Below, in pieces: positions 3,928-20,082 of a stretch of 32,896 bases of DNA. Each line of letters starts with the position of its first letter. The stretch's first letter is position 1. Below the pieces are notes generated by a model that worked only from the letters and a program-made list of their open reading frames with translations, was not told the DNA's origin and did no database searches. The translations under genes and the position numbers were made by a program. The DNA comes from Desulfobacterales bacterium (GTDB taxonomy: Bacteria > Desulfobacterota > Desulfobacteria > Desulfobacterales > Desulfosalsimonadaceae): contig JALOPH010000007.1 of the NCBI GenBank assembly GCA_025453995.1, positions 1-32,896 of the forward strand. Direction: 5' to 3'.

Positions 3928-5088
3928 ATGCCCACCGTCTCATTATTGCGCTGCGATAAATACGAAAACCGTGTGTTAAAAGACGTCATCCGCCAAAGCC
4001 TTGCCAATATCGGGTTTGATTTGAAAAGCCTTAAAAAAGCACGGGTAGTGGTCAAGCCCAATCTACTGATGCCGGCAAAAGATGAAAAAGCCATCATTAC
4101 CCATTCGGAATTTTTCAGGGCTGTGGTGCAGATTGTGAAGCAAAGCGGCGGCATACCGGTTCTGCTGGAATCACCGGCCATCCATTCTCTGGAACGTACC
4201 ATCAAAAAGACCAGTTACGCCCAGGTGGTTGAAAGCGAAGGCATTGAGGTGGGCAATCCCACAAAGACCCGGACCCTGCATTATGAAAGCGCAAAGAAAT
4301 TTAAGCATCTGGATATATCCGGGGAGTATTTTGGCGCAGACCTGATTTTAAACCTGCCCAAATTCAAAACCCACGGGATCACTTATATTACCGGCGCGGT
4401 GAAGCTCCTGTTCGGCGCCATCCCTGGCGTGGAAAAATCAAAAATGCATCTGCGGGCGCCCACGCCCGAGGAGTTTTCCGAATTCATTCTGGACTTATAC
4501 GGCGCCATGACATACGGGTTCTCCCCGCCCAAGCCCATCATCCATATCATGGACGCGATCTTAGCCCAGGAAGGGGAAGGGCCGGGGCCGGCCGGAAAGC
4601 CCAAGCGTCTCAACGCCGTACTGGCAGGGGACAACGGGATTGCAGTGGATTATGTGGCATCCCGGGTGGCGGGCGTGGATATCAAAAAAGCCCTGACCGT
4701 GGTCAACGGATTTAAAAGAAATTACGGGGTATCATCCGCCGATGAGATTTCAGTGGTCGGCGAAACCATTGAAACCCTTCGGCCGTCGCACTTTGAACCT
4801 GCCACCGGCGGCTCCATCTTCTCCAATATGTTCCGCTGGCCGTTTACCACGCCCACATTCAAGAACCTGTTTCTGGACCGGCCGGCGCCGAGGGAGGAAA
4901 AATGCACCCTCTGCTATCAATGCAAAAAAATCTGTGCGTCGGGCGCCATCAGCGAATCGGACGGCCGGAAAAAAGTCCCGTCCTATGACTACAATACCTG
5001 CATCCGTTGCTACTGCTGCATGGAGATCTGCCCGGAAGCAGCCATCCGAAAGGAGCGGGGGTGGCTGCAGTGGGCGCTGGGTTCCTGA
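3928..5088 (+). CDS. DUF362 protein with C-terminal 2x[4Fe-4S] ferredoxin domain
   Basis: Residues 1 to about 300 form a DUF362 domain (VVVKPNLL near the start, NLPKFKTHGITYITGAVKLLFG in the middle, GDNGIAVDYVA later). The last 70 residues hold two cysteine clusters, CTLCYQCKKIC and CIRCYCCMEICP, typical of a two-cluster ferredoxin; the first has Ala where Pro usually follows the fourth Cys. The 386-residue length is usual for this fusion in anaerobes. It is probably a cytoplasmic redox protein, but the reaction is unknown. AGGAG precedes the ATG. It stands alone, divergent from the ATPase on its left and convergent with the minus-strand genes on its right. Confidence 0.88.
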   Translation: MPTVSLLRCDKYENRVLKDVIRQSLANIGFDLKSLKKARVVVKPNLLMPAKDEKAIITHSEFFRAVVQIVKQSGGIPVLLESPAIHSLERTIKKTSYAQVVESEGIEVGNPTKTRTLHYESAKKFKHLDISGEYFGADLILNLPKFKTHGITYITGAVKLLFGAIPGVEKSKMHLRAPTPEEFSEFILDLYGAMTYGFSPPKPIIHIMDAILAQEGEGPGPAGKPKRLNAVLAGDNGIAVDYVASRVAGVDIKKALTVVNGFKRNYGVSSADEISVVGETIETLRPSHFEPATGGSIFSNMFRWPFTTPTFKNLFLDRPAPREEKCTLCYQCKKICASGAISESDGRKKVPSYDYNTCIRCYCCMEICPEAAIRKERGWLQWALGS

Positions 5089-5334
5089 GAAGTTGTTTCA
5101 AAACCTCATCTAATACTATATCGAATCTGCGATCAGCGCGCTTTAAATCCCCCTCAATCCCCCTTTTGAAAAGGGGGACTTTAAATCCCCTCTTTAGCAA
5201 AGAGGGGGCAGGGGAGATTTCAATGGTATATTTTTAACGACGCACTTGCATAAAGCCGGATAGCATGATGCTGCGCTTTTTCATCGGCCTGCGCCTTGCT
5301 TTCCAGCTTGATCCGAAGTTTTCAAACAGCTTCT
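5088..5334. repeat. Intergenic island bounded by 20-base imperfect inverted repeats
   Basis: AGAAGTTGTTTCAAAACCTC at 5088-5107 recurs inverted at 5315-5334 with 16 of 20 matches. Between them lie two C-rich/G-rich palindromes (5145-5220). No gene is seen in the gap. The left arm starts at the last base of the DUF362 stop codon. It could be a miniature non-coding mobile element, or two unrelated repeats next to each other. Confidence 0.4.
5145..5220. repeat. Two tandem C-rich/G-rich palindromic repeats
   Basis: Unit 1 (5145-5182) pairs CCCCCTTTT with AAAAGGGGG. Unit 2 (5183-5220) pairs CCCTCTTT with AAAGAGGG and has outer AAATCCCC / GGGGAGATTT. Both begin with AAATCCCC and match the elements at 1379-1419 and 19925-20006. 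Confidence 0.7.
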
Positions 5335-5338
5335 ATCT

Positions 5339-5938
5339 CTATTGCATGGCCGCCAGCTTTTTATAATCAATTTTCGCGGCGTACGCTTTTAAATCTTCCA
5401 AAGATACATCATTTCCGTCCAGTGTTACCAGGAAGCGGTTGGCAACAACCAATTTGATGTCTCCGGATTTATCCGCGGCGTTGTATTTGACAATGGCCTT
5501 TTCGCCGGCGATTTTTTCCAGCTTTCCGCCGTCCGCGCCCGCCAGCATGGGATTGCCGAACATCATCATCATGCTTTGAAGCATGGGAGAGTCGGTCACA
5601 ATCTGAATCCGAACAGAGCCCGACCCTTTGTTGTATTGACGTTCAGCGGATACGCCGCCGCCCAGCATGGCCGCGCCCACGGATTGGGACGTGGCTTCTT
5701 CGGCCTCCCACCCGGCAAGGGGCTGGGGCAGGAAGGATTGCAGATCCCCGCCTTTTTTCTGCCCGATCAGTTGGGATGCATAATTTAAGCTGGTCATGGC
5801 ATCGGAATACTTTCCATCCTGATAATATTGCAGCGCTTCATTGATGGCATCCGTCACATCATCTGCAAATGCAAGTCCTGAAAAAAACATGCTGCAAAAT
5901 AAAACCACCAACATTGTCCGGATTTTGAATTGATTCAT
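5339..5938 (-). CDS. Small exported protein of unknown function
   Basis: The start is placed at 5938 because AAAGGAGGAAG lies just before it and the product then begins MNQFKIRTMLVVLFCSMFF, followed by SGLAFADD, a standard signal peptide cut near residue 26; a longer reading frame from 6004 would bury it. The mature part (about 173 residues) opens with a helical stretch ALQYYQDGKYSDAMTSLNYA that resembles a TPR-like helix pair. It continues into a beta-rich region with VRIQIVTDSPM, GEKAIVKYNA and KLVVANRFLVTLDGND. I do not recognise the family with certainty. The gene begins 62 bases after the end of the PEP-synthase-like gene on the same strand, so the two are probably co-transcribed, although one product is exported and the other is cytoplasmic. 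Confidence 0.8.
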   Translation of the reverse strand: MNQFKIRTMLVVLFCSMFFSGLAFADDVTDAINEALQYYQDGKYSDAMTSLNYASQLIGQKKGGDLQSFLPQPLAGWEAEEATSQSVGAAMLGGGVSAERQYNKGSGSVRIQIVTDSPMLQSMMMMFGNPMLAGADGGKLEKIAGEKAIVKYNAADKSGDIKLVVANRFLVTLDGNDVSLEDLKAYAAKIDYKKLAAMQ

Positions 5939-6000
5939 AAGGCTTCCTCCTTTGTTAAAATGATTGATGATTGCCGGCTGCGCTTTCCCCTGATCAGGGA

Positions 6001-8607
6001 TCAATTCTTCTTGGATAGCACGGCGGTTTTAATGTCATTGTCAATTTTGGACCTGTAATAATTGATGGCCGATTCGTTGGACATGATCATGTCCAGCTGG
6101 CGGGCGTGCATGGTGAGATATCCGAGAATTTTGAGCCGTTCAATCATGAAATCCATGTCAAACCCTTCAATCCGGGCCACCAGGTTGTCTTCACGAAGCT
6201 CGACCCTGAAGGAATGATCCGTGAGAATGTCTGCAATAAACTGGATCCGCCGGATCCGGCGCTGGTTGTCGGCTGCGCCTCCCTTGAACCTGAAAGTGAT
6301 GTAGTTTTCCGCCGTCCGTTCGCTTACCAGGGCTTCCACAATGGAAAAATGATACCCCAGCCGGGACGTGAAAGAGCAGAAATTTTTTGAAATCATGAAA
6401 TAGTTGCGCTCTGTATAGGCTGATTTCATGCCCGGCACAAGGTCCCGGTTGGTGGTCGACCTGAACATTACCGCGGCCAGGCCTTTGCCGTCAATGGGCG
6501 GCGGGCCGTCCCATGGGACCGCGACAATGCCGTCCCACAAGGCCATCATGGGGACGGAGGTAATGTCTTCCAGCCGGATGTATTTCCCTTTGGCCTCCTC
6601 CCTGACGCCGTCATCCAGATTTAAAATCCACCATTGCATGGGGACTTTGTAAAAAAGCTGCTTGCTGGACCGTTCGGAAAAATTATGTTCCTTGCCGAAA
6701 TTAAACATTTCCTGAACGGATTTTTCATGGGCAAACCGCGTGATGTCATGGAAGGTTTTGCAGTTTTCCGGCTTGAAATCCGAGGCATAGGGGTCCAGTA
6801 AATTCAAGGGAATGATGTGCTTGCTGACCTCCAGAAGGATGTTGTACACCGGGCTCCCCTCGATAATGCTTTTTTCAGGCGCTGCCACATGGGCCGGGAC
6901 ATCTATTTTTCCCGCATAAACGCTTAAATGGTTGGTGTCCACGGTAATCAGGTCGCCGGTTTTTAATTTGGACATGGCGTCTTTCAAGCCGAAGATGGCA
7001 GGCACCTTGAATTCCCGGGCCACATTGGCCAGATGGCCGGCGAAGGTGCCATGCTCGGTGAGAACGGCCGCTGCCTTGTTGAGCAGGGATGCCCATAACG
7101 GAAGGGCCTGGCGGGCGACTAAAATCGCCCCTTTTGGGAAATTGACCGTGTCTCCGGGGCTGTTGACGGCAAATGCTTCTCCGCTGGCAAAACCCGGACA
7201 AATGGCGATGCCGCCTGACACAATCACGTTTTCCTTGGTCTTCCAGATCAGCTCATCCGGGTAGTCCATTTTCAGGGTTTCCATCTGCTGCAGGGGCCGG
7301 CATTGAAGGATATAAATGCTGCCGTCCCTGGCCACCGCCCACTCGATATCCTGGGGCGAGCCGTAATACTGCTCCATGCGGACAGCCAGTTCCGCAAGCC
7401 GCATGGCCTCATCATCGCTGATGGACGGCTGGTCTTTGGTATGTTCGGTGATGTCAAACTGGCACACGCCGTTGTCGGCAAAACAGAGAAACTGGTTCTT
7501 TTTTTCCTTGATATCCTTAAAAGATATCTGAATCGGGCCTTTTCGGCCCACCACAAACAGGTCGCAGTCCACGCTGCCGTCCACCACGGCCTTGGGCAGC
7601 CCCCAGGCCGAGTTGATGAAAACAGAGCTGTCGCTGGTATCCAAGGGGTTGCGGGTATACATCACGCCTCCGGAACGGGCGTCCACCATGGCGATGCAGC
7701 CCACGCTCATGGCGATATCTTCATCCCGGATTCCCTTGTTGAGCCGGTAGGTGATGGCGGTGAGACTGTATTTGCTGGCCATGATCTCTTTGTATTTATG
7801 AAAGAGATTTTCAGAGCGGACGTTCAGCTCGGAGCGATACTGCCCGGCAAAAGAGTTGGCGGCCGAATCCTCTCCCATGGCGCTGCTCCTTAGGGCCACG
7901 GCAACCGGCACGCCCATTTCCTGTTCAAGGGCATGATATGCGTTTTGGATTTCAGTTTCCAGGTCTTTGGGGATTTCAGCTTCAATAATGAGTTTCTGAA
8001 TGTCCGCGTTCAAGGTATAAAGCGCTTCCATGTTGGTGATGTCGGTGGCGATGAACCGGCGGTCGATTTCAGACTGGAGATCGTTGTGATCAATGAAATA
8101 CTGATACGCATGGGCGGTAATGGCAAACCCGGACGGCACTTTGAGGTTTACCTTATTTAGAATTTCTCCGAGGTTGGCCATTTTGCTGCCCACCAGGTCA
8201 GCCATGGTTCGGTCAACGGCCGTGAGCGGGATGACGAAGCGTTCGTCTTTGCCTTCTTTTTTTTGTTCAATTAATACGCTAATTTTATTCCATATATCGT
8301 CAAACCTCGCATAGAGCTGGTTGTATTTGCCTTCGCTGAGCTGTTCGAGGTTTTTTATAAGGCGCATGAGGCTGACCGTGATGGCGATGCAGTTGCTTTT
8401 GACAAACGACATGCCGAACGGCTGCTTTCCCGCCAGCGCCTGCTCAATGCCGGTCATGATTTCAAGGGCGCTGTTGTTGGCGTTTAACAGCAGCTTGAAA
8501 TGATGGTACCGCTCCTTAAATGCGATCCGCAGTTCTTCAGCGTCCGGACCTTCGACGTCAGGTTCTTTTTTGAAGCGGTTTTTAAAAAATTCGACCAGTT
8601 TTTTCAT
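6001..8607 (-). CDS. PEP-synthase-like protein (PPDK N-domain plus phosphohistidine domain, no PEP-binding barrel)
   Basis: This 868-residue protein has an unassigned helical N-terminus (1-120). A pyruvate/PEP-dikinase ATP-grasp domain follows (about 125-445), with GSKMANLGEIL (140-150), ALRSSAMGEDSAANSFAGQY (238-257), GVMYTRNP (314-321) and IEWAVARDGSIYILQCRP (421-438). A swivelling phosphohistidine domain comes next (about 460-575), with TEHGTFAGHLANVAREFKVP; His525 aligns with the phosphorylated His of PEP synthase. The final 290 residues do not resemble the usual PEP/pyruvate TIM barrel and I do not recognise them. The enzyme could transfer phosphate from ATP to a substrate other than pyruvate, as rifampin phosphotransferase does. 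No membrane segment was seen. The ribosome site is weak. The exported protein gene follows. Confidence 0.85.
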   Translation of the reverse strand: MKKLVEFFKNRFKKEPDVEGPDAEELRIAFKERYHHFKLLLNANNSALEIMTGIEQALAGKQPFGMSFVKSNCIAITVSLMRLIKNLEQLSEGKYNQLYARFDDIWNKISVLIEQKKEGKDERFVIPLTAVDRTMADLVGSKMANLGEILNKVNLKVPSGFAITAHAYQYFIDHNDLQSEIDRRFIATDITNMEALYTLNADIQKLIIEAEIPKDLETEIQNAYHALEQEMGVPVAVALRSSAMGEDSAANSFAGQYRSELNVRSENLFHKYKEIMASKYSLTAITYRLNKGIRDEDIAMSVGCIAMVDARSGGVMYTRNPLDTSDSSVFINSAWGLPKAVVDGSVDCDLFVVGRKGPIQISFKDIKEKKNQFLCFADNGVCQFDITEHTKDQPSISDDEAMRLAELAVRMEQYYGSPQDIEWAVARDGSIYILQCRPLQQMETLKMDYPDELIWKTKENVIVSGGIAICPGFASGEAFAVNSPGDTVNFPKGAILVARQALPLWASLLNKAAAVLTEHGTFAGHLANVAREFKVPAIFGLKDAMSKLKTGDLITVDTNHLSVYAGKIDVPAHVAAPEKSIIEGSPVYNILLEVSKHIIPLNLLDPYASDFKPENCKTFHDITRFAHEKSVQEMFNFGKEHNFSERSSKQLFYKVPMQWWILNLDDGVREEAKGKYIRLEDITSVPMMALWDGIVAVPWDGPPPIDGKGLAAVMFRSTTNRDLVPGMKSAYTERNYFMISKNFCSFTSRLGYHFSIVEALVSERTAENYITFRFKGGAADNQRRIRRIQFIADILTDHSFRVELREDNLVARIEGFDMDFMIERLKILGYLTMHARQLDMIMSNESAINYYRSKIDNDIKTAVLSKKN

Positions 8608-8642
8608 GCGTATGGAGAAAAAAAGAACGATTACTATATGGT

Positions 8643-8782
8643 TTCATAAATATGGTTGCATATTATGAGTTTTGTAGGGCGGGCGTTAAGCCCTCCCCTA
8701 CGAAGGACAGTCATTTTTTTATGGAGGGGCGGGGTTAACACCCGCCCTAAAATCGCAATTGAATATTTGGTATATTTATGAA
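8643..8782. repeat. Candidate miniature element with 11-base terminal inverted repeats
   Basis: TTCATAAATAT at 8643-8653 is repeated exactly in inverse as ATATTTATGAA at 8772-8782. Between them are two G/C palindromes: GTAGGGCGGG...CCCTCCCCTAC (8674-8701) and GGGGCGGGG TTAAC ACCCGCCC (about 8726-8746). There is no coding potential. No target-site duplication is evident at the borders. Confidence 0.45.
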
Positions 8783-8838
8783 TCACCCCCACCCTGACCC
8801 TCCACACCGTTCAAGGGAGAGGGGATAAGGGGGTATTC
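8783..8838. repeat. CCCTGACCCTC / GGGAGAGGGG repeat
   Basis: A C-rich half (CACCCCCACCCTGACCCTCC) is followed by a G-rich half (AAGGGAGAGGGGATAAGGGGG) that can fold back on it. From memory, related CCCTAACCCTCTCCC-type repeats are widespread in bacterial intergenic DNA. With the element before it and the hairpins after it, it fills the 8608-8920 gap, where no gene is seen. Confidence 0.5.
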
Positions 8839-8852
8839 ACTTATCCTGTATA

Positions 8853-8878
8853 TCGGCGCAGCGAATCCGCTGCGCCGA
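8853..8878 (-). terminator. GC-rich hairpin downstream of the membrane-protein gene
   Basis: TCGGCGCAGCG (8853-8863) and CGCTGCGCCGA (8868-8878) form a perfect 11-base stem with a four-base loop. It lies just past the stop-codon hairpin of the operon that ends at 8921. It lacks a long T-run on the minus strand, so its role as a terminator is tentative. Confidence 0.4.
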
Positions 8879-8882
8879 AAAT

Positions 8883-8925
8883 ATTAATTTATCTTTGGCT
8901 TTCCAAAAGCCCAAGATAAATTAAT
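8883..8925 (-). terminator. Hairpin starting at the stop codon of the TauE-linked membrane protein
   Basis: ATTAATTTATCTT (8883-8895) and AAGATAAATTAAT (8913-8925) are perfect arms, extended inwards by GGCT/AGCC. The stop codon at 8921-8923 lies inside the arm. Probable end of the operon 8921-11759. Confidence 0.6.
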
Positions 8926-9610
8926 GGCTGATCTGCAGACCCCAGCCTTCAAAAATAAACAATATCGCATACCCGTACCACAGGGTATAGATCACATAAA
9001 AAACCAGAGAAAAGATCACTAATCCCAGCTTGCTGGTCATGCTTTCGGGAATGACTTTGTAGTAATTATAACTACATTCCACGGCGCGGGTCATGACCGT
9101 GTAAACGGCTTTGCCTTCATTAAACTGTTCCTGTTTGTCGAGATCTTTTTTCATGGATTTCAGGCCGGTCCACCAGTTAAAGAGAGTTTTTCTGCCCTCC
9201 GTGCCGTATTTTTCCTGAAGCTTTTCTCCCAGGTTGTTAAAAAGGGTATCCGCATCTTCTAAGCAGTTGGCAAGAATCTTGCCAAGATCGCCGGTCACTT
9301 TCAGGTTTTTTCCTTCCCCGTCCACGGTTGCGCCGCCGTTGGTAAACAGCAGCATGCTTTCCCGGGCCTGTTCTTCGGAATCAAATGAAAGGTTGACGGT
9401 GATATTTTTTCCGGCCTCGGTTTTCGCCACATCCTCTTTGATCTTGGGGATGTAGTAGGCCGATCCCTTTGAAATGGAGTTAAACAGGTTGTCCAGATAA
9501 TCCAATCCATTGTGGCCGTGATAAATGGGCATAAAAAAGATGAACAAGACCACTAAAAATCCTGCCATCATGGCGATGCCGCCGGTGAATTCTTTTTTAT
9601 TGGCAATCAT
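8921..9610 (-). CDS. Two-helix membrane protein of unknown function, paired with TauE/SafE
   Basis: The 229-residue protein has one hydrophobic helix near each end: AMMAGFLVVLFIFFMPIYHG (13-32) and GLVIFSLVFYVIYTLWYGYAILFIFEGW (about 196-223). A soluble loop of about 160 residues rich in Lys, Asp and Glu lies between them, probably outside the cytoplasm. I do not recognise the family. Its ribosome site (GGTGAGGAGG) is the end of the TauE/SafE gene, three bases away, so translation is likely coupled. A partner or accessory subunit of the permease is the simplest reading. No catalytic motif was noticed. Confidence 0.8.
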   Translation of the reverse strand: MIANKKEFTGGIAMMAGFLVVLFIFFMPIYHGHNGLDYLDNLFNSISKGSAYYIPKIKEDVAKTEAGKNITVNLSFDSEEQARESMLLFTNGGATVDGEGKNLKVTGDLGKILANCLEDADTLFNNLGEKLQEKYGTEGRKTLFNWWTGLKSMKKDLDKQEQFNEGKAVYTVMTRAVECSYNYYKVIPESMTSKLGLVIFSLVFYVIYTLWYGYAILFIFEGWGLQISH

Positions 9611-9613
9611 GAT

Positions 9614-10894
9614 TTAAGCCTCCTCACCTTTTAATTTTTTAATGTTCATTACAAATGTGCCGATAACCCAGATGGCGAAAATGGAAATAAAGATGAAGAA
9701 CAGCCAGATGCCGAGGGTATCCAGAAGGGCGGCGGTTTCCTTGGAAAGGGGAAACGCGCCCACAGACGCCAGTTTGGCCGGCAGGGCGAAAAACCGGTTG
9801 ATAAATCCGGCCAGAACCGCCATGGCGTAGAATCCGCGGATGGTGATGCCTTTGACCACTTTGGTGGCCAGGGCGCCGATCTGAATCCCCAGCAGAGATC
9901 CGAGCAGCATGCCCATGGCCAGGGTGTAGAAGATAAACCCATAGATCGCGTACTGGCCGATGGCCGCATACCCTGCGGTGAAGATGATCTGGAAGATGTC
10001 GGTTCCCACGGTGGTCATGGACGACACCCCAAGCACGTACACAAAGATAGGGAAGGTCAGAAACCCTCCGCCCACGCCCATGATGGCCGCGCACAGGCCC
10101 ACAAAAAAACCGCTGATAATAAGGAACCAGGATGAGATGCGGCGTCCGCCGGGGGTGACTTCCTGGTCAAAAGTAACCATGGGCGGAAGGTTGATGGCCT
10201 GGAGTTTTTTGGGGAGATTTCCCATGGCCGCGCCCTCGGCTTTTGAGCCGTGAAATTCGCCGCCGGTGTCTGCTTTCCGGGCTTTGAGAAAGTCAATCAG
10301 CGAATAAAGCCCCAATGCGCCCAGCATGAGCACGTAAATGGTGGTGATGAACGCGTCGCTGATCACGGGGTTGATTTCATATAACACCCGGTTGATCCAT
10401 CCGCCCAATGTGGCCCCGAAAATAGATCCGATCAGGAAGATGACGGCCAGCGCCACGGAAATATTGCCGAGCTTCTTGTGCAGCACGCTTCCCATGATGG
10501 CCTTGGCGAAAATGTGGAACAGGTCCGTGCCCACCGCCAGAATACCTTTGATTCCCGCGCTCATCAATGCCGGGGCGATGATGAACCCGCCGCCCGCGCC
10601 GATGCATCCGGTGATGAGCCCCGCGCACAGCCCGATGAGGATGGACGCGATAAAGATTTTCATGGTGAAAAATGACGGGCTGTAGGCGGTCTTGCCACCG
10701 AGATACTTGGGGAGTTCTCCGGCCACTTCATCGGCAAACACAATCCCGCCGATAAGGATCGGCAACAGCATCAACCCCAGCACCAGGAGCCGCTTTTTAT
10801 CACCCAGGATGGTTTTTGCCGTCCTGATTTCCCAGTCTGCATGGGCGCGTGCGCCTTCATACAGAAACTGGCCTGTTTTGGTCAGAAAATTCAT
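9614..10894 (-). CDS. TauE/SafE family sulfite/organosulfonate permease
   Basis: This 426-residue multi-pass membrane protein contains the duplicated TauE/SafE signature: GLITGCIGAGGGFIIAPALM in the first half and GLCAAIMGVGGGFLTFPIF in the second. VGTDLFHI and VGTDIFQI are the matching second motifs, so the internal duplication is intact. It is longer than the usual 250-300 residues because of an N-terminal cytoplasmic stretch and helix (1-55), a hydrophilic linker of about 60 residues between the halves, and a final helix near 395-415. Family members are thought to move sulfite, sulfoacetate or other anions; the substrate here is unproven. AAGGAGGAATG precedes the ATG. The two response-regulator genes lie directly upstream and the two-helix protein directly downstream. 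Confidence 0.9.
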   Translation of the reverse strand: MNFLTKTGQFLYEGARAHADWEIRTAKTILGDKKRLLVLGLMLLPILIGGIVFADEVAGELPKYLGGKTAYSPSFFTMKIFIASILIGLCAGLITGCIGAGGGFIIAPALMSAGIKGILAVGTDLFHIFAKAIMGSVLHKKLGNISVALAVIFLIGSIFGATLGGWINRVLYEINPVISDAFITTIYVLMLGALGLYSLIDFLKARKADTGGEFHGSKAEGAAMGNLPKKLQAINLPPMVTFDQEVTPGGRRISSWFLIISGFFVGLCAAIMGVGGGFLTFPIFVYVLGVSSMTTVGTDIFQIIFTAGYAAIGQYAIYGFIFYTLAMGMLLGSLLGIQIGALATKVVKGITIRGFYAMAVLAGFINRFFALPAKLASVGAFPLSKETAALLDTLGIWLFFIFISIFAIWVIGTFVMNIKKLKGEEA

Positions 10895-10931
10895 TGAACA
10901 TTCCTCCTTCTTATAAATTCAGTTAGATTGG

Positions 10932-11348
10932 TTAAACTTTTTCCTTCATCATATTTTCAATCCCTTTGATTTTCGATTCCTGGAGTGATTTTTTCTGGTG
11001 GGCATCCTTTATCTTATAGTAAAGTTCATCAATGTCCGCCGGCTTGACCATGTAGTCAAACGCCCCGCTTTCCATGCCGGCCCGGGCCGCGTCGAGCATG
11101 GCATGTCCCGTGAGCATGATGACTTCAATGAGCGGCCACCGGCATTTGATGTCCTTTAATATGTCAATCCCGCTCTTAAAGCCGGGCATTTTAACGTCCA
11201 AGACCACCACGTCGCAAGGATCTTTTTCAATGCGCTCGATGGCTTTTTCTCCGTCTGATACGCCGGAGGCGTCGATATTTCTCTTTTTCATCCGCTTGAT
11301 GATGATATCCAAAAAATCGGTTTCATCGTCTACAAATAATACTTTCAT
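10932..11348 (-). CDS. Single-domain response regulator (CheY-like), copy 2
   Basis: The 138 residues are a receiver domain with the acidic pair Asp7-Asp8, phospho-acceptor Asp51 (VVVLDVKMPG), switch Thr80 (MLTGHA) and Lys102 (VKPAD). A short helical tail follows but no output domain. It would be phosphorylated by a histidine kinase that is not encoded in this window and act by protein contact. It lies 12 bases after another receiver gene and 37 bases before the TauE/SafE gene, all on one strand, so the regulators may modulate this transport system. It resembles its neighbour across the whole receiver domain, suggesting an old duplication. Confidence 0.9.
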   Translation of the reverse strand: MKVLFVDDETDFLDIIIKRMKKRNIDASGVSDGEKAIERIEKDPCDVVVLDVKMPGFKSGIDILKDIKCRWPLIEVIMLTGHAMLDAARAGMESGAFDYMVKPADIDELYYKIKDAHQKKSLQESKIKGIENMMKEKV

Positions 11349-11360
11349 TATTTCACCATC

Positions 11361-11759
11361 CTATTTATGGCGGATTTTTTCCTCATTTATTTTTCTTTTT
11401 TCATGGGCTTCCCCGATTTTTTGAATCAGTTCGCTGATCTGACAGGGCTTCATGAGATAGTCGCTGGCGCCGATTTTAAGGCCGGATACCGCGGATTCAA
11501 ACGTGGCATGGCCGGTCAGCATGACCACTTCAACCAGGGGAAAACGGTTTTTAATTTCTTTAAGAAGGGTAATGCCGTCCATGCCCGGCATTCTGACGTC
11601 TAAAACCGCCACATGAACGTCGTGGGTTTCAAGAATGTTTAAGGCTTGTTTTGCATCCAGCGCCGTTAAAATATCATAGCCCCGCTTGCTCAAGAGCTTT
11701 GCGTTGGATGTGACAAACTTTTCCTCATCATCAACCAGCAACACGCTAATAGGGTTCAT
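11361..11759 (-). CDS. Single-domain response regulator (CheY-like), copy 1
   Basis: The 132-residue receiver domain has Asp10-Asp11, phospho-acceptor Asp54 (VAVLDVRMPGMDG), Thr82 (MLTGHA) and Lys104 (LMKPC). There is no DNA-binding or enzymatic output domain. It is the first gene of the four-gene minus-strand run ending at 8921. Both regulators share DVxMPG, the xPLxEVxMLTGHA stretch and a Lys/Glu-rich tail. Two tandem lone receivers suggest a phosphorelay or two inputs to one target. The cognate kinase is probably elsewhere in the genome. Confidence 0.9.
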   Translation of the reverse strand: MNPISVLLVDDEEKFVTSNAKLLSKRGYDILTALDAKQALNILETHDVHVAVLDVRMPGMDGITLLKEIKNRFPLVEVVMLTGHATFESAVSGLKIGASDYLMKPCQISELIQKIGEAHEKRKINEEKIRHK

Positions 11760-12114
11760 GGGGTCTATTCCTGCGATTTGATTTGATCAAAATTAAAAAA
11801 ATAACCATATTTAAAAGAAAATGTTTTTGCAATCTTTTTTATTGTTCTATTTTCAATATGTTAGAAACCAATCTCAGTAATCCCGCCTAATGAAAGAAAT
11901 GGTGAGAATGACAAATTTGTTATTGCAGCTTTCGATAAAATTACATAATTGTAATCATTATGGCCGTTTCTCAGGTAAGCTTTGTGTATTTACTTGATAA
12001 ATCAATAAATTAATATTTATAACCCTTTGGCATATATTTTGAATCTATCTTTACGCCGCAGAAGCCATTTCCCGGCAGAGGCGGCTTATTGATGTAAATA
12101 ATAAGGAGTTGAAT
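11760..12114. promoter_or_regulatory. Divergent control region between the regulator/TauE operon and the glt operon
   Basis: This AT-rich gap of about 355 bases has no credible gene. It must carry promoters in both directions. Visible structure: a near-palindrome ATTACATAATTGTAAT at 11940-11955, TTTGATCAAA at 11782-11791 close to the minus-strand start, and a sigma-54-like site at 12028-12042. Confidence 0.5.
12028..12042 (+). promoter_or_regulatory. Possible sigma-54 promoter for glutamate synthase
   Basis: TGGCAT, five bases, TTGA lies 72 bases before the glt start. This agrees with the TGGCAC-N5-TTGC pattern in the key GG and spacing, but has A in place of the C at the -12 element. A nitrogen-controlled promoter would suit glutamate synthase genes; the match is imperfect. 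Confidence 0.35.
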
Positions 12115-13245
12115 ATGTGTCGGTTGTTTGCCATCACCAGCGATACGCCGGTGTCACCCATGAAGGCCCTCTATGCCTTGGACGTCATGCGGGAAGGTCA
12201 TGACGGGTCCGGCGTGGGGTTGTTTTTAAGGGACCTGGCCGGGCCTTTTGAGGAGATGAAGGATGCGCCGATCCTTTCTGGGATTTTCACTGAGGACGGC
12301 ATCAAGCGATTAGACAGCTATATGATTGATATCGGATTCCTCACCAAGTATCGGATCACCTTTAAGATATCCAAAAACCCCCCTCCCGGCGTGCCCAAAC
12401 GGGATATTTACCTGATCCGGGCCTATGAATACCCGGAGGAATGGGAGGGGCTGAGTCAGACGGAAAAGCAAGACCGGCTGCTGGGGTTGCGGCTTACGCT
12501 CCAGGATCTGGGGCGGGAGAAAAAGGATATGATCGTTTTTTCCTTCTGGCCGGACACCATCATGATCAAGGAAATCGGCGATCCCATGACCGTGGGGAAA
12601 TATCTGGAATTGGACAACGAACGGCTCAAAGCCCGTGTGATCATGGCCCAGGGCCGCCAGAACACCAATTATGCCATTGACCTGTATGCCTGTCATCCTT
12701 TCTTTATTCAGGGATTCTCCACCATGACCAACGGCGAAAACACGGCGTTTGTGCCTATCAAAGAATACCTGATGTCACGGGGGGTCAATGGCTATACAGG
12801 GTTTTATTCGGATTCGGAGGTATTCGTCCATATCCTCCATTACATGACTAACCGGCTGGGGCTTGATGTCGAATCCTACAAGCATATCATCACGCCGCTT
12901 CAGGATGACGCCCTGGAGGAACATCCCAACGGGATGTTTTTGAAGCATTTAAAAAAGAGCTGCAGAAAGCTCATCATCGACGGGCCCAACTGTGTCATCG
13001 GCGTGCTGCCGGACAACACCATGTTTATGGTTCAGGATAGAAAAAAATTGAGGCCGGGCGTCGTGGGCGGTCGGGCCGGCACATTTGCGTTTTCTTCAGA
13101 GATCTGCGGCCTGGACGCATTTATGCCGTACCGGGATAAAACAAAAGATTTCCAGCCCATGCACTTGGATACGGTGGTGGTTAAACCGGACCGCAAAGAG
13201 GTGAACATATGTCATCAAACACAACGATTATCCCATCTTCATTAA
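12115..13245 (+). CDS. Glutamate synthase, glutamine amidotransferase part (class II), separate ORF
   Basis: The start is set at the ATG followed directly by the TGT codon, because class II amidotransferases use an N-terminal Cys exposed after Met removal; the product begins MCRLFAITSD. AAGGAG sits six bases before it. MREGHDGSGVG (25-35) is the substrate-binding loop typical of the family. In ordinary bacterial GltB this domain is the N-terminal third of a 1,500-residue chain; here it is a 376-residue protein of its own, as in archaeal-type glutamate synthases. It would release ammonia from glutamine for the synthase domain. Its last 37 bases overlap the next gene, so translation is probably coupled, and its extreme C-terminus is probably not conserved. 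Confidence 0.88.
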   Translation: MCRLFAITSDTPVSPMKALYALDVMREGHDGSGVGLFLRDLAGPFEEMKDAPILSGIFTEDGIKRLDSYMIDIGFLTKYRITFKISKNPPPGVPKRDIYLIRAYEYPEEWEGLSQTEKQDRLLGLRLTLQDLGREKKDMIVFSFWPDTIMIKEIGDPMTVGKYLELDNERLKARVIMAQGRQNTNYAIDLYACHPFFIQGFSTMTNGENTAFVPIKEYLMSRGVNGYTGFYSDSEVFVHILHYMTNRLGLDVESYKHIITPLQDDALEEHPNGMFLKHLKKSCRKLIIDGPNCVIGVLPDNTMFMVQDRKKLRPGVVGGRAGTFAFSSEICGLDAFMPYRDKTKDFQPMHLDTVVVKPDRKEVNICHQTQRLSHLH

Positions 13246-14843
13246 GCGTCAAAGATCTGCCCTGGCAGATTGTCTGGGACAAGGACAAATGCACCCTGTG
13301 CGGCAAATGCACGGCCATATGCCCGGTTCATGCCATTGAACTGGGGGTGTTTCGAAAAAGAATGGTGGATGTTTCCCTGGGCATCGGCGCGCCGCCGGGG
13401 AACGTGTTTAAAACATTCTACGGCATCCGCCAGAAAACCGCGCCTGCCTATCACTGCATCGGGTGCGCCATGTGCGCCATGGTCTGCCCGTCCGATGCCA
13501 TCATGCCCTGTCGAACCGATGAAGCGGATAAACTCAGATTTCATATCAACCAGGGAGGGGAACCCGAGCGCCGGGGCGGGCGAAGAAACTCGCCCGGCGG
13601 GGTGTTGGACCGGATCAAGTTCATCCGGATCTCCATGCTCACCGACCCGGCACTGGACGCCGGACGCCATGAATTTGAAATGCGCACCCTTTTGGGAAGG
13701 ATTCTGCCACCGGAGGAAAATATCCGGTTTGTCCGGGAACACGGCTGGATTCCGCCGGTTCGGGAGATATATCCGCTGATTATCGGCGGCATGTCATTCG
13801 GCGCGCTGTCGCCCACCATGTGGGAAGGGCTTCAGATGGGGGTGGCGTATCTCAATGAGGAGCTGGGCATGCCGGTGAGGATCAGCACGGGCGAAGGCGG
13901 GTGCCCGCCCCGGCTGCTGAGGTCCCGATTTCTGCAATATGTGATCTTGCAGATTGCCAGCGGTTATTTCGGGTGGGATGAAATCATCCATGCCATTCCT
14001 GAAATGAAAGTCGATCCATGCGCCGTTGAAATCAAATACGGTCAGGGCGCAAAGCCCGGCGACGGCGGACTGCTCATGTGGCACAAGGTCAACCGTCTCA
14101 TTGCGGCTATTCGCGGTGTGCCGCCCGGGGTCAGCCTGCCGAGCCCGCCCACCCATCAGACCAAGTATTCCATCGAAGAATCCGTGGCCAAAATGATCCA
14201 GTCCATGTATATGGCCTGGGGGTTCAGGGTGCCGGTGTATCCCAAGATATCGGCTACATCCACGGCCCTGGCGGTACTCAACAATCTGACACGCAACCCC
14301 TATGCAGCCGGGCTTGCCATTGATGGCGAAGACGGGGGCACCGGCGCTGCGTATAATGTTTCCATGGACCACATGGGCCATCCTATTGCCAGTTGCCTGC
14401 GGGACTGCTATCAGAATCTTGTCTCGGTTGGACAGCAGAATGAAATCCCCCTGTTTGCCGGGGGCGGGATCGGCAAATCCGGCAACCTGGCGGCCAATGC
14501 GGCGGCTCTGATCATGCTGGGCGCTTCCGGCATCCAGGTGGGCAAGTACATCATGCAGGCGGCCGCCGGGTGCGTGGGATCTGAATCGGGAAGGTGCAAC
14601 ATCTGCAACATCGGGCTGTGTCCCAAGGGGATCACGTCCCAGGATCCCCGGCTCTATCGCCGGCTCGACCCGGAGGATGTGGCCCAGCGGATCGTGGATA
14701 CTTTTGTGAGCTTTGACACCGAACTGCGGAAAATCGTGGCGCCTCTGGGGCGGTCCACGTCGCTTCCCATCGGCATGTCCGATGCGCTGGGCGTTGATGA
14801 TGCCGCGGTGGCGGAGCGATTGAAAATAAAGTATGTTGTGTAA
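13209..14843 (+). CDS. gltB: Glutamate synthase, FMN/Fe-S synthase part with N-terminal ferredoxin domain
   Basis: The 544-residue protein starts with two [4Fe-4S] motifs: Cys28/31/34/38 followed by Pro, and Cys83/86/89/93 followed by Pro. The glutamate synthase FMN barrel follows, with GGMSFGALSP, ISTGEGG, EIKYGQGAKPGDGG, AIDGEDGGTGAA, PLFAGGGIG and LGASGIQVGKYIM. CNICNIGLCPKGI near residue 460 corresponds to the cysteine loop that binds the 3Fe-4S cluster. It converts 2-oxoglutarate and ammonia to glutamate using electrons from the partner subunit or ferredoxin. This is the archaeal-type arrangement. It overlaps the amidotransferase gene by 37 bases and is followed 39 bases later by the third gene. 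The symbol is used in the broad sense of the large-subunit catalytic part. Confidence 0.9.
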   Translation: MSSNTTIIPSSLSVKDLPWQIVWDKDKCTLCGKCTAICPVHAIELGVFRKRMVDVSLGIGAPPGNVFKTFYGIRQKTAPAYHCIGCAMCAMVCPSDAIMPCRTDEADKLRFHINQGGEPERRGGRRNSPGGVLDRIKFIRISMLTDPALDAGRHEFEMRTLLGRILPPEENIRFVREHGWIPPVREIYPLIIGGMSFGALSPTMWEGLQMGVAYLNEELGMPVRISTGEGGCPPRLLRSRFLQYVILQIASGYFGWDEIIHAIPEMKVDPCAVEIKYGQGAKPGDGGLLMWHKVNRLIAAIRGVPPGVSLPSPPTHQTKYSIEESVAKMIQSMYMAWGFRVPVYPKISATSTALAVLNNLTRNPYAAGLAIDGEDGGTGAAYNVSMDHMGHPIASCLRDCYQNLVSVGQQNEIPLFAGGGIGKSGNLAANAAALIMLGASGIQVGKYIMQAAAGCVGSESGRCNICNIGLCPKGITSQDPRLYRRLDPEDVAQRIVDTFVSFDTELRKIVAPLGRSTSLPIGMSDALGVDDAAVAERLKIKYVV

Positions 14844-14869
14844 ATTTTTCGTCCCCAGGATGAAAAATT
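14843..14869 (+). other. Hairpin starting at the gltB stop codon, inside the operon
   Basis: AATTTTTC (14843-14850) pairs with GAAAAATT (14862-14869), extended by a wobble-containing GTCC/GGAT inner stem. The stop codon is at 14841-14843. It sits before the ATG at 14883, so it could adjust the ratio of the two proteins by attenuation or RNA processing. Confidence 0.45.
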
Positions 14870-14882
14870 CATGGAGCAATAG

Positions 14883-17297
14883 ATGGAAAGCGAGCAATAT
14901 CATATTATTTCAGGAAAAGAAAAAGATGTCCGGCTTGAATCCAGGGTTCTTGAGGAGCGGATTCAGGCGGCCGTGGAACAGGGCCATCGGCATATCGAGG
15001 TCCATGCATTCGGCCAGCACGGCATCGGCGGCAGGCTATGGAAAGCCGGTTCAGAAAAAGTTCATGTCCGGGTGACCGGACATACCGGCCAGCGCCTTGG
15101 ATCTATGGGCTTTCCCGGTACACGCATTGAGGCAATGGGCCCTGCATCCGATGATGTGGGATGGCTTAATGCCGGCGCCCAAATCATTGTTCGCGGTAAC
15201 GCGGGCAACGGCGTGGCCAATGCCATGGCCCAGGGGAAAGTCTATATCGCCGGGAATATCGGCGCCCGAGGCATGACCATGACCAAGCACAATCCAAAGC
15301 ATGCGCCGCCGGAACTCTGGGTGCTGGGCTCTGCCGGAGATTATTTCGGAGAGTTTATGGCCGGCGGCATTGCCGTGATCTGCGGAATCGATGGCCAGAG
15401 CCCGGATAATATTCTGGGATACAGGCCCCTGGTGGGCATGGTGGGGGGTAGAGTATTTTTCCGGGGACGTCATGGCGGTTACAGCAAAAGCGATGCCAAG
15501 CTGATGCCCATAGATGATGCGGACTGGAAATGGCTGGAAGAAAATCTTAAAAAATTCCTGGAAGCCATTCACCGGATTGAGCTTTATGACGAATTATCCA
15601 TTAGGGACCGCTGGGAGCTGATCGCCGCGCGAGCGCCCCATGACAAGGTCATCCGGCGCATCCGGTCCCTTCCTGAATTCCATGATGCCGTGTGGAACAG
15701 GGAACTCGGCAAGGGGGGGCTGGTGGGAGATCTGTCTGACGCGGATATGAATAAAATCCCCATTATCACCACCGGTGAATTCCGCCGGTATGTGCCGGTC
15801 TGGGCCAACCGGAAATACAAGGCGCCTTGTGAAACCGCATGCCCTTCGGGAATCCCGGTTCAAGACCGGTGGCGCCTGATCCGGGAAGGCCGGGTGGATG
15901 AGGCCGTGGATTTGGCGTTGGCGTATACCCCTTTTCCGGCCACGGTGTGCGGATATCTTTGTCCGAATTTGTGCATGACGGCCTGTACCCGTCAAACAGC
16001 CATGATGCCCTCGGTTGACATCACCCAGCTCGGCAAGGCCAGCGTCAAGGCCAAGCTGCCGAAGATGCCCGAGGTTTCCGGGAAAAAAATCGCCGTCATC
16101 GGCGGCGGTCCGGCCGGGATTTCCGTGGCCTGGCAATTGCGGCACCGGGGGCATGAGGCCGTTATTTATGATGCTTCTGAAGATCTGGGCGGAAAAGTCA
16201 TTTCGGTCATTCCGGAAACGCGAATCCCAAAAGATGTGATCGCCGAGGAATTAAAGCGGATCAAGCAAATCATCCCCCATGTGCATCTTCAGCAGAAGCT
16301 CACCAAAGACGACATTGAGCAGCTCAAGACGGACTTTGATTTTGTGGTGATCGCCACCGGCGCGCGGCAGTCCAGGACGCTTCCCGTGCCGGGAAAAGAG
16401 AAGATGATCACGGCCTTTGACTTTTTAAAGCGCGCCAAGATCGGCGGCATCGATCCCGGCAGAAATGTGGTTATTATCGGCGCCGGAAATGTGGGATGCG
16501 ACGTGGCCACGGAAGCCCGTCGCCTGGGAGCAAAACAACTGACGCTCATTGATGTTCAGAAACCGGCGGCTTTCGGCAAGGAAAAATCCCACGCAGAAGC
16601 AGCAGGCGCAAAGTTCCGTTGGCCGTGCTTTACCAAAGAGATTACGGATAAAGGCGTGGTGCTGGATACCGGAGAAGTGATCGCGGCGGACACGGTGGTC
16701 ATTTCCATCGGCGATATGCCCGAACTGGATTTTCTGCCCGATACGGTAAAAACCGGCAAGGGGTTTATACTGGTGAATGAAGTTTACCGGACAACGGATC
16801 ACAAGATTTTCGCCGTGGGCGACACCGTAAAACCGGGCCTTCTGACGGATGCCATCGGCGCGGGCCGGAAAGCAGCGGCCGTCATATCCGACATTCTTGA
16901 AGGAAAACGACCGTCGGGAAAGGTTCAGAGCGGGCAGGGGCGGCAGGAATCATCAGAAGGCCGGGTATCCGAATACCAGGGAGTTCATGCGGGTGTTTGG
17001 GACGACCGGAAAGTCATCGATAAGGGGCGCGTGAAACTGGAATACTTTGACCCCAGAATCACCGAATTTCACGACGTCCATGAATGCGGGACCGAGTGCC
17101 TGTCCTGCGGCGCCTGCCGGGACTGCGGGATCTGCGTGGCGGTCTGCCCCCAGGCGGCCATCAGCCGGAAGAGTCTCGAAAACAATGGATATGAGTATGT
17201 GGTGGCCCCGGATCGCTGTATCGGCTGCGGTTTTTGCGGGGGCGCGTGTCCCTGCGGTGTATGGGATTTGGTGGAAAACGAGCCCATGAATGTTTGA
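14883..17297 (+). CDS. Glutamate synthase fusion: GXGXG domain + NAD(P)H-oxidoreductase subunit + ferredoxin domain
   Basis: Three parts appear in one 804-residue chain. Residues about 30-230 are the GXGXG beta-helix normally at the C-terminus of GltB (GQHGIGG, GHTGQRLGSMG, GNAGNGVANAMAQG, GNIGARGM). Residues about 300-680 resemble GltD: the N-terminal cysteines 316, 320, 356, 360, 364 and 368, FAD motif GGGPAG (407-412), NAD(P) motif GAGNVG (533-538) and the FAVGDTV segment that closes the FAD site. The last 75 residues are a ferredoxin domain with Cys739/742/745/748/751/755 and Cys779/782/785/789. The fusion would carry electrons from NAD(P)H, or from ferredoxin, to the FMN site of the preceding protein. 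The small subunit is also related to NfnB-type bifurcating flavoproteins, so the electron donor is open. Last gene of the glt operon. Confidence 0.88.
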   Translation: MESEQYHIISGKEKDVRLESRVLEERIQAAVEQGHRHIEVHAFGQHGIGGRLWKAGSEKVHVRVTGHTGQRLGSMGFPGTRIEAMGPASDDVGWLNAGAQIIVRGNAGNGVANAMAQGKVYIAGNIGARGMTMTKHNPKHAPPELWVLGSAGDYFGEFMAGGIAVICGIDGQSPDNILGYRPLVGMVGGRVFFRGRHGGYSKSDAKLMPIDDADWKWLEENLKKFLEAIHRIELYDELSIRDRWELIAARAPHDKVIRRIRSLPEFHDAVWNRELGKGGLVGDLSDADMNKIPIITTGEFRRYVPVWANRKYKAPCETACPSGIPVQDRWRLIREGRVDEAVDLALAYTPFPATVCGYLCPNLCMTACTRQTAMMPSVDITQLGKASVKAKLPKMPEVSGKKIAVIGGGPAGISVAWQLRHRGHEAVIYDASEDLGGKVISVIPETRIPKDVIAEELKRIKQIIPHVHLQQKLTKDDIEQLKTDFDFVVIATGARQSRTLPVPGKEKMITAFDFLKRAKIGGIDPGRNVVIIGAGNVGCDVATEARRLGAKQLTLIDVQKPAAFGKEKSHAEAAGAKFRWPCFTKEITDKGVVLDTGEVIAADTVVISIGDMPELDFLPDTVKTGKGFILVNEVYRTTDHKIFAVGDTVKPGLLTDAIGAGRKAAAVISDILEGKRPSGKVQSGQGRQESSEGRVSEYQGVHAGVWDDRKVIDKGRVKLEYFDPRITEFHDVHECGTECLSCGACRDCGICVAVCPQAAISRKSLENNGYEYVVAPDRCIGCGFCGGACPCGVWDLVENEPMNV

Positions 17298-17416
17298 CGG
17301 AAGTTTGGTGTTGATTTGAACGGCTGATCTGTTAAAAGGCCTTAGCCCAAATGGAAATGGGCTATCAAAGGATCAAAACCAAAACATATTGGCATGTTAA
17401 TCAATTTAAGACGGTA

Positions 17417-18070
17417 ATGTTTCAGGCGATTCTGTTTGACAGTGACGGTGTGCTTATCGATTCAGAACGGCTGTTTTTTGAAGCGACCCGTGATGCCTTC
17501 GAGTCCGCGGGAAGCTTTATTTCTCGCGGGCAATGGGCGACGTGGTATTTGAGCGAAGGGAAACGTTCCCGTGAAATCGCCGGGCTGGTTGGCATACCCT
17601 CTTCCCGTTTGGATGAGATCATCGCACGGCGGGACAAATTGTTCTGGGATCAAATTGACCGGGGAGCGCCCCTCTTGCCCGGCGTGGCGGAGACGCTGGA
17701 TCACCTTGACGGGCAATTTCGCCTTGCGGTGGTGACCGGGGCATCCCGAAAGCATTATGATCGGGTTCATGCATCAACGAACTTGCGGGATTACTTTGAG
17801 GTTATGGTCACGAAAGATGAATGCGAGCATGTCAAACCTCATCCGGAGGCATACCTGACCGCTTTGCATAAGCTTTCACTGAAACCCTGCGAATGTCTGG
17901 CTGTGGAGGATTCTCCCCGAGGCGCGACAGCGGCTTTAAAAGCGGGGATCCCCTGCGTTGTCATCCCGACGGGCCTGACGGATATAGCGCTCTGTCCGGA
18001 GGGATGCAGGATTCTGCATAACATATCGTGTCTTAAGGATTTGCTCGAAAAAGAAAGGCCAGTGGCATGA
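17417..18070 (+). CDS. HAD-superfamily hydrolase, beta-phosphoglucomutase/phosphoglycolate-phosphatase-like
   Basis: From the ATG at 17417 the product starts MFQAILFDSDGVLIDSE, placing HAD motif I (DSDGV) at residues 8-12 as usual; an in-frame ATG at 17351 would add 22 residues unlike the family. Motif II is VVTGASR, motif III the Lys in HVKPHPEAY, and motif IV EDSPRGATAALKAG. A helical cap (about 15-80) marks subclass IA. It should remove or move phosphate on a small sugar phosphate or similar substrate, which cannot be named. Its stop overlaps the ATG of the carbonic anhydrase gene (ATGA at 18067-18070), so the two are translated together. The ribosome site is poor. Confidence 0.85.
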   Translation: MFQAILFDSDGVLIDSERLFFEATRDAFESAGSFISRGQWATWYLSEGKRSREIAGLVGIPSSRLDEIIARRDKLFWDQIDRGAPLLPGVAETLDHLDGQFRLAVVTGASRKHYDRVHASTNLRDYFEVMVTKDECEHVKPHPEAYLTALHKLSLKPCECLAVEDSPRGATAALKAGIPCVVIPTGLTDIALCPEGCRILHNISCLKDLLEKERPVA

Positions 18071-18690: not shown

Positions 18691-18718
18691 TGCATACATC
18701 ATCGGCTGTGGATATATC

Positions 18719-19861: not shown

Positions 19862-20069
19862 AAGTCAGGAGTCAGAATCCAGAATCCAGAATAAATGATG
19901 AATTAACTTAAAAAAAGGCAGAAGAAGTCCCCCTTGATAAAGGGGGATTTAGGGGGATTTAAAAAAAATCATGAAATCCCCCCAACCCCTTGTGAAAGGG
20001 GGGCATCAGCAGGAGACTTTGATATTCAGATGTCTTATTCTGGCTCCTGGATTCTGGCTTCTGAATTCT
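19862..20069. repeat. Composite repeat block between carA and carB
   Basis: A direct AGTCAGGAGTCAGAATCCAG-type block starts at about 19863, and an inverted counterpart, with CTGGCTCCTGGAT at 20040-20052, runs to about 20069. Nested between them are two C-rich/G-rich palindromes, 19925-19960 and 19974-20006, of the type also found at 1379 and 5145. No gene was seen. Confidence 0.65.
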
Positions 20070-20082
20070 AAGAATTACAACC

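Follow-up and report, generated by a model that had tools for sequence, protein, structure and literature searches.

What does a phosphoenolpyruvate (PEP) synthase-like protein do when the barrel that handles PEP and pyruvate is missing? This question is raised by the open reading frame (ORF) at positions 6001 to 8607 of a 32,896-nucleotide stretch of DNA from a Desulfobacterales bacterium (GenBank assembly GCA_025453995.1, contig JALOPH010000007.1, positions 1 to 32,896), the whole of which we call the window. We refer to the family of this protein as PPSL, a name coined here. Our analysis points to an ATP-driven phosphohistidine transferase with a new acceptor-side domain, placed in a module of response regulators and a permease; we favor this answer tentatively, rating it a little short of even. 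The initial annotation had the coordinates right, and the gene lies on the minus strand: that strand of 6001-8607 is one 868-residue frame, and the plus-strand translation has many stops. The features of the gene are as follows.

6001..8607, minus strand: PPSL gene, 868 residues, a barrel-less PEP-synthase-like protein with a new C-terminal domain (ORF with Pfam and NCBIfam)
8248..8607, minus strand: helical N-terminus, residues 1-120, predicted as three long helices, with conserved positions such as F37, L41, N44 and L98 (predicted model and alignment)
7279..8199, minus strand: ATP-grasp domain (PPDK_N), residues 137-443, with K142, R240, E422, Q435 and R437 (Pfam and alignment)
6931..7140, minus strand: PEP-utilizers mobile (phosphohistidine) domain, residues 490-559 (Pfam)
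7033..7035, minus strand: codon of His525, the predicted phosphohistidine (alignment)
6004..6894, minus strand: C-terminal domain, residues 572-868, with conserved H620, D621, R624, H627, E628, H753, N768, G777, R787 and D839 (alignment and models)

Domain anatomy and spread of PPSL

In the PPSL protein, Pfam matched PPDK_N at residues 137-443 (E 1.3e-94) and PEP-utilizers at 490-559 (E 2.4e-18) and nothing else at E<=0.01; the PEP-utilizers_C barrel (PF02896) gave no match at this threshold, and residues 1-120 also lie outside the matches. The NCBIfam PEP-synthase models cover residues 121-575 only and score far under their cut-offs (365.5 of 598 and 347 of 739.75 bits), and a sequence search of the PDB brought up PEP synthases and rifampin phosphotransferases as relatives, no stretch being aligned past residue 585. 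We take K142, R240, E422, Q435 and R437 to be catalytic residues, following the literature on pyruvate phosphate dikinase and PEP synthase. Together with H525, they are near-invariant across 116 aligned members, 51 of sub-type A and 65 of sub-type B (A denotes a tail at least 44% identical to that of the window protein, which is an identity cut and not a tree). Position 525 is His in 114 of the 115 members readable there, Arg in one, and masked bases cover it in the remaining member. The domain matches and the near-invariant residues bear out the initial annotation, which had described complete ATP-grasp and phosphohistidine domains with His525 in place. Judged by these residues, PPSL is likely a competent transferase. 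Among tandem PPSL arrays, some unusual copies stand beside other copies: one has Arg for His525 (L098 3890-6637), and in two the ATP-grasp domain is missed by the PPDK_N profile (L182 11142-13634, L190 10819-13203).

The tail, residues 572-868, had no match in Pfam, NCBIfam, PHROGs or the PDB. A PEP barrel was looked for there and rejected: Pfam gave no match, the best E value was 0.092 in a PDB profile search and 0.037 with Foldseek (none <=0.001), and the best hit of a structure comparison of the tail (VIA), with Z 5.7 and rmsd 4.1 over 136 residues, was treated as noise. The full-length predicted model (pLDDT 81.8, pTM 0.66) begins with helices, continues through the two known domains and ends in a tail in which helices are combined with bbbb-a-bb-a; the model of 572-868 alone (mean pLDDT 74.7 with low stretches, pTM 0.68) likewise has helices and bbbb-a-bb-a and no barrel. 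The initial annotation had noted a missing PEP/pyruvate barrel and an unrecognised C-terminus of about 290 residues, and had named a recognisable PEP-binding barrel in the tail as the result that would overturn it. PF02896 is indeed unmatched, neither model predicts a (b/a)8 barrel, and the unmatched tail comes to about 297 residues. The lack of fold matches above noise does not, with predicted models, prove that the tail is a new fold. Its conservation can be stated plainly: H620, D621, R624, H627, E628, H753, N768, G777, R787 and D839 are near-invariant in the 116 aligned members. The tail also keeps company with the core. The tail profile matched 175 ORFs; in 169 of them PPDK_N was matched as well, and there the tail always comes after PPDK_N. 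By inspection, four of the other six are cut at an end and two have a diverged ATP-grasp domain.

Could PPSL still be a PEP synthase or pyruvate dikinase, with pyruvate bound by a different fold? Residues 120-575 are closest to PEP synthase, and the source genome, which is about 92% complete, showed no gene that combines PPDK_N with the barrel. Against this stand the lack of any barrel match, the several paralogs in many genomes and, as described below, a strong association with two-component genes and permeases, and we regard this as the least probable of the explanations, hardly to be credited. Two further PPDK_N proteins occur in the source genome: one of 736 residues with the phosphohistidine domain at its C-terminus (G000:C129, L003 259-2469) and one of 864 residues with a long N-terminal part and no phosphohistidine match (G000:C41, L004 919-3513). 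Neither has a PEP barrel match; the PEP-utilizers_C matches lie in other frames, of 600 and 776 residues.

PPSL is widespread among sulfate reducers. With E<=0.001 as the threshold, relatives of the last 330 residues turned up in 131 of the 192 genomes from the class and 60 of the 148 from the phylum, with up to 12 matches per genome, a pattern far beyond chance; among the matches listed, they share 31-82% identity in the tail. The source genome has two matches, and paralogous copies are frequent, with several per genome in many carriers. Of 60 genomes from the class to which genome G265 belongs, 55 matched the tail profile. Occurrence in other phyla was covered only by a scan of named genomes that reaches close relatives; its 49 loci come from Desulfo- genera, Desulfobacterales/Desulfobacteraceae, Deltaproteobacteria, Proteobacteria, "bacterium" bins, Desulfarculales-type names and one SAR324. 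The sulfite reductase gene dsrA was above the cut-off in 74 of the 148 phylum genomes, in 56 of 60 PPSL carriers versus 18 of 88 non-carriers: 56 genomes have both, 4 have PPSL only (these genomes are 62-80% complete), 18 have dsrA only and 70 have neither, counts that ignore kinship among genomes and for which a Fisher value is a guide only.

Joint loss of core and tail residues in one genus

A second line of evidence comes from 51 loci of the type seen in a nitrate-resistance cluster of Desulfovibrio (below), chosen by a binding-protein neighbor or by similarity to the protein of L201/L203. In 12 loci of one genus, PPSL is only 648-654 residues long; by length and similarity, this short form is present in 17 of 17 genomes of the genus, as frames of 650-670 residues. 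K142, R240, Q435 and His525 are lost in all 12, with E422 still Glu in two and R437 still Arg in two. The tail has changed with the core: in all 12, H620 is Tyr, H627 is Asn, H753 is Asp (Glu in one) and D839 is changed to Lys, Asn, His, Tyr or Thr. Other tail positions are retained: all 12 still have D621, R624, N768, G777 and R787, and 11 still have E628. The gene just upstream has also gone, as a single-domain response regulator (REC) is absent there in 11 of the 12 loci; none of the 12 has lost the TauE-type permease or the kinase. For comparison, in 20 relatives of other genera, picked by PPSL similarity, REC lies just upstream in 18 (one within a 448-residue REC/sigma-54 protein), and none of the 20 has lost any of the six core residues, any of the three histidines or D839.

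Since H620, H627, H753 and D839 were lost jointly with the core, they may form a second, acceptor-side active site in the tail; the tail histidines and Asp839 would be coupled to the chemistry of His525, as such a site predicts. The initial annotation had suggested that PPSL phosphorylates some unknown substrate. Near-invariant catalytic residues, the absent barrel and the joint loss make phosphorylation of something other than pyruvate the most natural reading of the sequences, and in that conditional form the suggestion survives.

The short copies also speak for the idea that PPSL is a noncatalytic ATP sensor or scaffold. Because short copies have been retained in 17 of 17 genomes and the 12 that were read all lack His525, the rest of the protein would have a use of its own. 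A general role of this kind is very unlikely, as the core residues are near-invariant in the 116 other aligned members. As an observation in its own right, the PPSL copies of L203, L204 and L206-L215, which lack the phosphohistidine domain, persist next to TauE, a Phosphonate-bd-type gene and the kinase, and may have a new, noncatalytic role.

Gene neighborhoods and the Desulfovibrio nitrate cluster

In the window, PPSL ends a run of genes in the order REC, REC, TauE, MEM229, PPSL, with gaps of 12, 37, 3 and 313 bases:

11361..11759, minus strand: single-domain response regulator, 132 residues, with D10, D11, D54, T82 and K104 (Pfam and alignment)
10932..11348, minus strand: single-domain response regulator, 138 residues (Pfam)
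9614..10894, minus strand: TauE/SafE-type permease (PF01925), 426 residues, 63-89% identical among the related loci listed (Pfam)
8921..9610, minus strand: MEM229, 229 residues, with a hydrophobic stretch at each end (by eye) and no Pfam match (Pfam scan)
5339..5938, minus strand: small protein with an export-like start (start taken at an internal ATG), 62 bases past the PPSL stop (ORF)

The last of these has no relative in the compared loci, and its membership in the module is uncertain. Sigma-54 promoter matches in the window gave no signal (14 with <=2 mismatches versus 19.3 expected), and over 5000-12150 a promoter scan found 11 matches versus 7.7 (sd 3.1) in shuffles, with 10 terminators versus 10.3. 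Farther on, a 378-residue ORF without a Pfam match (12109-13245) stands just before a region with glutamate-synthase-like and carbamoyl-phosphate synthase genes (13209-23337).

To see how typical this arrangement is, neighbors within 5 kb were counted for 118 well-flanked PPSL genes (37 of sub-type A and 81 of B). Of 167 distinct PPSL genes, 42 had flanks too short to be counted, and another 7 of the nitrate type, though well flanked, were omitted as their loci had been chosen by a neighbor; the controls were 115 ORFs of at least 150 residues from 19 of 20 stretches of 20 genomes, none of them genomes of the 49-locus scan. Two-component genes lie near 106 of the 118 PPSL genes (33/37 A, 73/81 B) versus 30 of 115 controls, single-domain REC genes near 75 (30/37 A, 45/81 B) versus 14, and TauE near 24/37 A and 51/81 B versus 5 of 115. 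Two-component genes and TauE occur together near 72 of the 118 PPSL genes and near 1 of the 115 controls. Two further neighbors are absent from the controls (0/115 each): proteins with a dCache sensor domain (24/37 A, 25/81 B) and MEM229 (22/37 A, 4/81 B), which is next to TauE in the window. The initial annotation had proposed a search for co-occurring genes; the search brought up two-component systems, TauE-type permeases and sulfate reducers, none of which it had foreseen. Nor had it anticipated that mutants of a syntenic cluster have a published phenotype (below).

Earlier locus tables, made with a PPSL profile that included ATP-grasp segments, supply the REC residues, fusions, counts within 250 bases and neighbor clusters. 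In these tables, neighboring single-domain REC proteins keep the phospho-acceptor Asp (equivalent to D54) in 116 of 118 aligned. Fewer PPSL genes have a same-strand REC gene within 250 bases (5/29 A, 20/52 B, versus 2/115 controls) than have one in the 5-kb neighborhood. Gene orders include kinase-REC-REC-REC-PPSL (L173, L174) and PPSL-kinase-REC-PPSL (L098). The partner transporters vary: TauE comes in several lengths, and a relative of Na:sulfate symporters forms a cluster of 12 ORFs in 12 loci (one scanned with Pfam). Nine other recurring neighbors were scanned with Pfam, other clusters being outside the scan; none was a metabolic enzyme, and four of the nine had no Pfam match. Also recorded near sub-type B genes were a DUF4881 protein in 12 loci (L114 13365-13985 and others; one example scanned) and a PF09608 (Alph_Pro_TM) protein in 15 loci, 14 of them on the PPSL strand (L120 2870-3658 and others; one example scanned). 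An apparent giant fusion in G230, a frame of 1,833-1,838 residues, was rejected: PPDK_N matches only at 1081-1400, with no other Pfam domain upstream, and we attribute so long an open frame to the GC-richness of the genome, whose other loci have 67% GC.

The frequency of single-domain REC genes raises the possibility that PPSL is itself a kinase for response regulators, a dikinase-fed phosphorelay in which His525 would take phosphate from ATP and hand it to the REC Asp. Such a relay would agree with REC genes within 5 kb of 75/118 PPSL genes and with their conserved acceptor Asp, as well as with a REC gene just upstream of 18/20 intact nitrate-type genes and its absence in 11/12 loci without His525. 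Yet genes with a histidine-kinase ATPase domain lie within 5 kb of 75 of the 118 PPSL genes, and the C-terminal histidines would be left with no role. We consider the relay improbable; two observations on the genus with short copies, given with the objections below, tell against it as well.

Genetic data come from Desulfovibrio. In the part of Korte 2014 (PMC4001038) concerned with DVU0251-DVU0245 / Dde_0597-0605, this poorly annotated cluster comprises a TauE-like permease, a PtxB-like protein, a kinase, a REC protein, a "pyruvate phosphate dikinase" domain protein (DVU0246) and a phosphatase. Strains with insertions in DVU0246, DVU0247, DVU0250 and DVU0251 are described there as growing alike with or without 100 mM nitrate, the phosphatase mutant DVU0245 as still inhibited, and a leaky thiosulfate transporter is offered as the authors' suggestion (PMC4001038). 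Because insertions in each abolish nitrate inhibition, the PPDK-like protein, the REC protein and the permease may, as the mutants suggest, act in one pathway.

We found the same order in other genomes: TauE, a protein of about 210 residues, Phosphonate-bd, kinase, a REC protein of 119-129 residues, PPSL and a DSP phosphatase. Pfam scans of one example or of three confirmed the kinase, the REC protein, the binding protein, DUF169 and the phosphatase. Nine intact syntenic loci picked by the Phosphonate-bd neighbor match the PPSL tail profile and keep its C-terminal residues; TauE lies within 7 kb upstream in 6 of the 9 and the kinase next to REC and PPSL in all 9. For the 20 loci picked by PPSL similarity, the corresponding numbers are 13 and 15. 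The window order is not that of the nitrate cluster, and the window represents a different sub-type.

The most serious competitor makes PPSL a metabolic kinase: it would phosphorylate a small anion or sulfur compound imported by the TauE-type permease, and the two-component genes would switch the operon on. The TauE neighbors fit this scheme, as do the DSP phosphatase beside the nitrate-cluster type (three examples scanned) and the acceptor-side histidines, conserved and lost with the core; moreover, rifampin phosphotransferase (RPH), the closest model match, shows that such a core can serve small molecules. On the other hand, PPSL paralogs pair with different transporters, no metabolic enzyme appeared among the nine scanned recurring neighbors (four without a Pfam match), and insertions in DVU0246 mimic those in the permease gene in the account of Korte 2014 (PMC4001038), which loss of a downstream enzyme need not do. 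We judge a metabolic kinase rather unlikely, if clearly less so than the relay. The mutants share a phenotype and the partner transporters vary, and for these reasons we lean toward regulation of the permease rather than modification of a metabolite.

Proposed mechanism and relation to known systems

Based on these findings, we propose the following mechanism for PPSL as a phosphohistidine transferase. The protein would be made from the first two thirds of a PEP synthase. Its ATP-grasp domain would phosphorylate His525 on the swivelling domain, and in place of the barrel a new domain would offer H620, H627, H753 and D839 as a second, acceptor-side active site. PPSL would belong to one module with the histidine kinases, the single-domain response regulators and the TauE-type or other anion permease of sulfate reducers. 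Most likely, a response regulator would gate PPSL, whose activity would be needed for the permease to work or to be made. The domain anatomy, the conservation, the neighborhood, the co-occurrence and the joint loss were observed directly; the catalysis, the order of steps and the regulatory role in this scheme are inferred. Taken further, the rebuilt PEP-synthase core could be a response-regulator-coupled phosphohistidine switch with a previously undescribed acceptor domain, which controls anion transport and has multiplied across sulfate reducers as a third partner of two-component systems; we hold this wider proposal with less assurance than the transferase itself.

Several observations weigh against our proposal. 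By Pfam, there is no histidine kinase among the genes of the window's own cluster; 12 of the 118 PPSL genes lack a two-component gene within 5 kb, and 9 of these lack TauE as well; and no PPSL-REC fusion was found in the earlier tables. The neighborhood cannot tell regulation from metabolism. The joint loss concerns one genus and is probably one event; one locus of that genus (L215) keeps REC beside a core-less PPSL, and 10 intact nitrate-type copies of the genus lie elsewhere, 9 of them without REC just upstream. These last two observations are those that also count against PPSL as a kinase of response regulators. As for the nitrate cluster, DVU0246 was placed in the PPSL type provisionally, by gene order and domain list only (PPDK_N and PEP-utilizers, no barrel named), and its gene of 2,235 bp is shorter than the intact syntenic copies that were read. 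According to the passages of PMC4001038 on these strains, the fitness signs of DVU0250 and DVU0245 differ between methods or strains, which for DVU0250, where pooled and single mutants gave conflicting results, tells against our proposal, and the mutants are mostly transposon insertions, for which polar effects on neighbors are possible.

The nitrate cluster was already known genetically; the tail domain, the PPSL family and its spread are new as far as the literature was searched. No description of any of these three was found there, subscription papers being outside the scope, and for DVU0246 itself Korte 2014 was the sole paper found. PPSL is thereby a large family whose tail has no domain model and which tracks dissimilatory sulfite reductase through a phylum. 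Our proposal gives a testable explanation for the unexplained nitrate-resistance cluster of Desulfovibrio and is relevant to souring control. If it is true and the acceptor is a regulator or transporter, PPSL would represent a new kind of step in bacterial phospho-signalling; if the acceptor is a small molecule, it would add a new kinase activity to sulfur or anion metabolism. The residues lost together, H525, H620, H627, H753 and D839, are pointers for mutants.

How does PPSL compare with known systems? The window neighbor belongs to the TauE/SafE (TSUP) permeases by PF01925, and for TSUP proteins of sulfate reducers the relevant part of Marietou 2018 (PMC5840216) states that function predictions are not feasible. 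The nitrate cluster shares with the window the TauE permease, the REC protein and the PPDK_N plus PEP-utilizers protein, and its syntenic clusters carry the PPSL tail. The nitrate sub-type adds the Phosphonate-bd protein, a histidine kinase, DUF169 (beside TauE in L203) and the DSP phosphatase, with no MEM229 seen, whereas the window sub-type has the 426-residue TauE and MEM229. From PEP synthase (e.g., PDB 2ols, 9dae, 8a8e), residues 120-575 keep the order of ATP-grasp then phosphohistidine domain with the active-site His aligned, and both have PPDK_N with Lys/Arg/Glu/Gln/Arg and a mobile domain with His; unlike PEP synthase, PPSL lacks the PF02896 barrel, has an extra helical N-terminus and the new C-terminal domain, and scores far below the cut-offs. 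In a comparison of the whole model, RPH is the top structural match over 121-567 (Z 40.4, rmsd 3.1, 422 aligned), followed by PEP synthase 2ols (Z 39.3). In RPH (PDB 5hv3/5fbs), too, ATP-grasp and swivelling phosphohistidine domains serve a non-pyruvate acceptor, and the initial annotation had drawn this analogy. It holds for the chemistry and fails for the architecture: the chain of RPH ends with the phosphohistidine domain, which follows the substrate domain, whereas in PPSL the phosphohistidine domain lies at 490-559, before the new domain. The RPH model gives PPSL 224.1 of 999 bits, and the fold matches listed for the C-terminal model do not include RPH, where a missing row is no proof of difference. 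Taking these comparisons together, PPSL appears to be neither a PEP synthase, given the absent barrel and the sub-cut-off scores, nor a rifampin phosphotransferase, given the domain order, and its first two domains resemble those of both.

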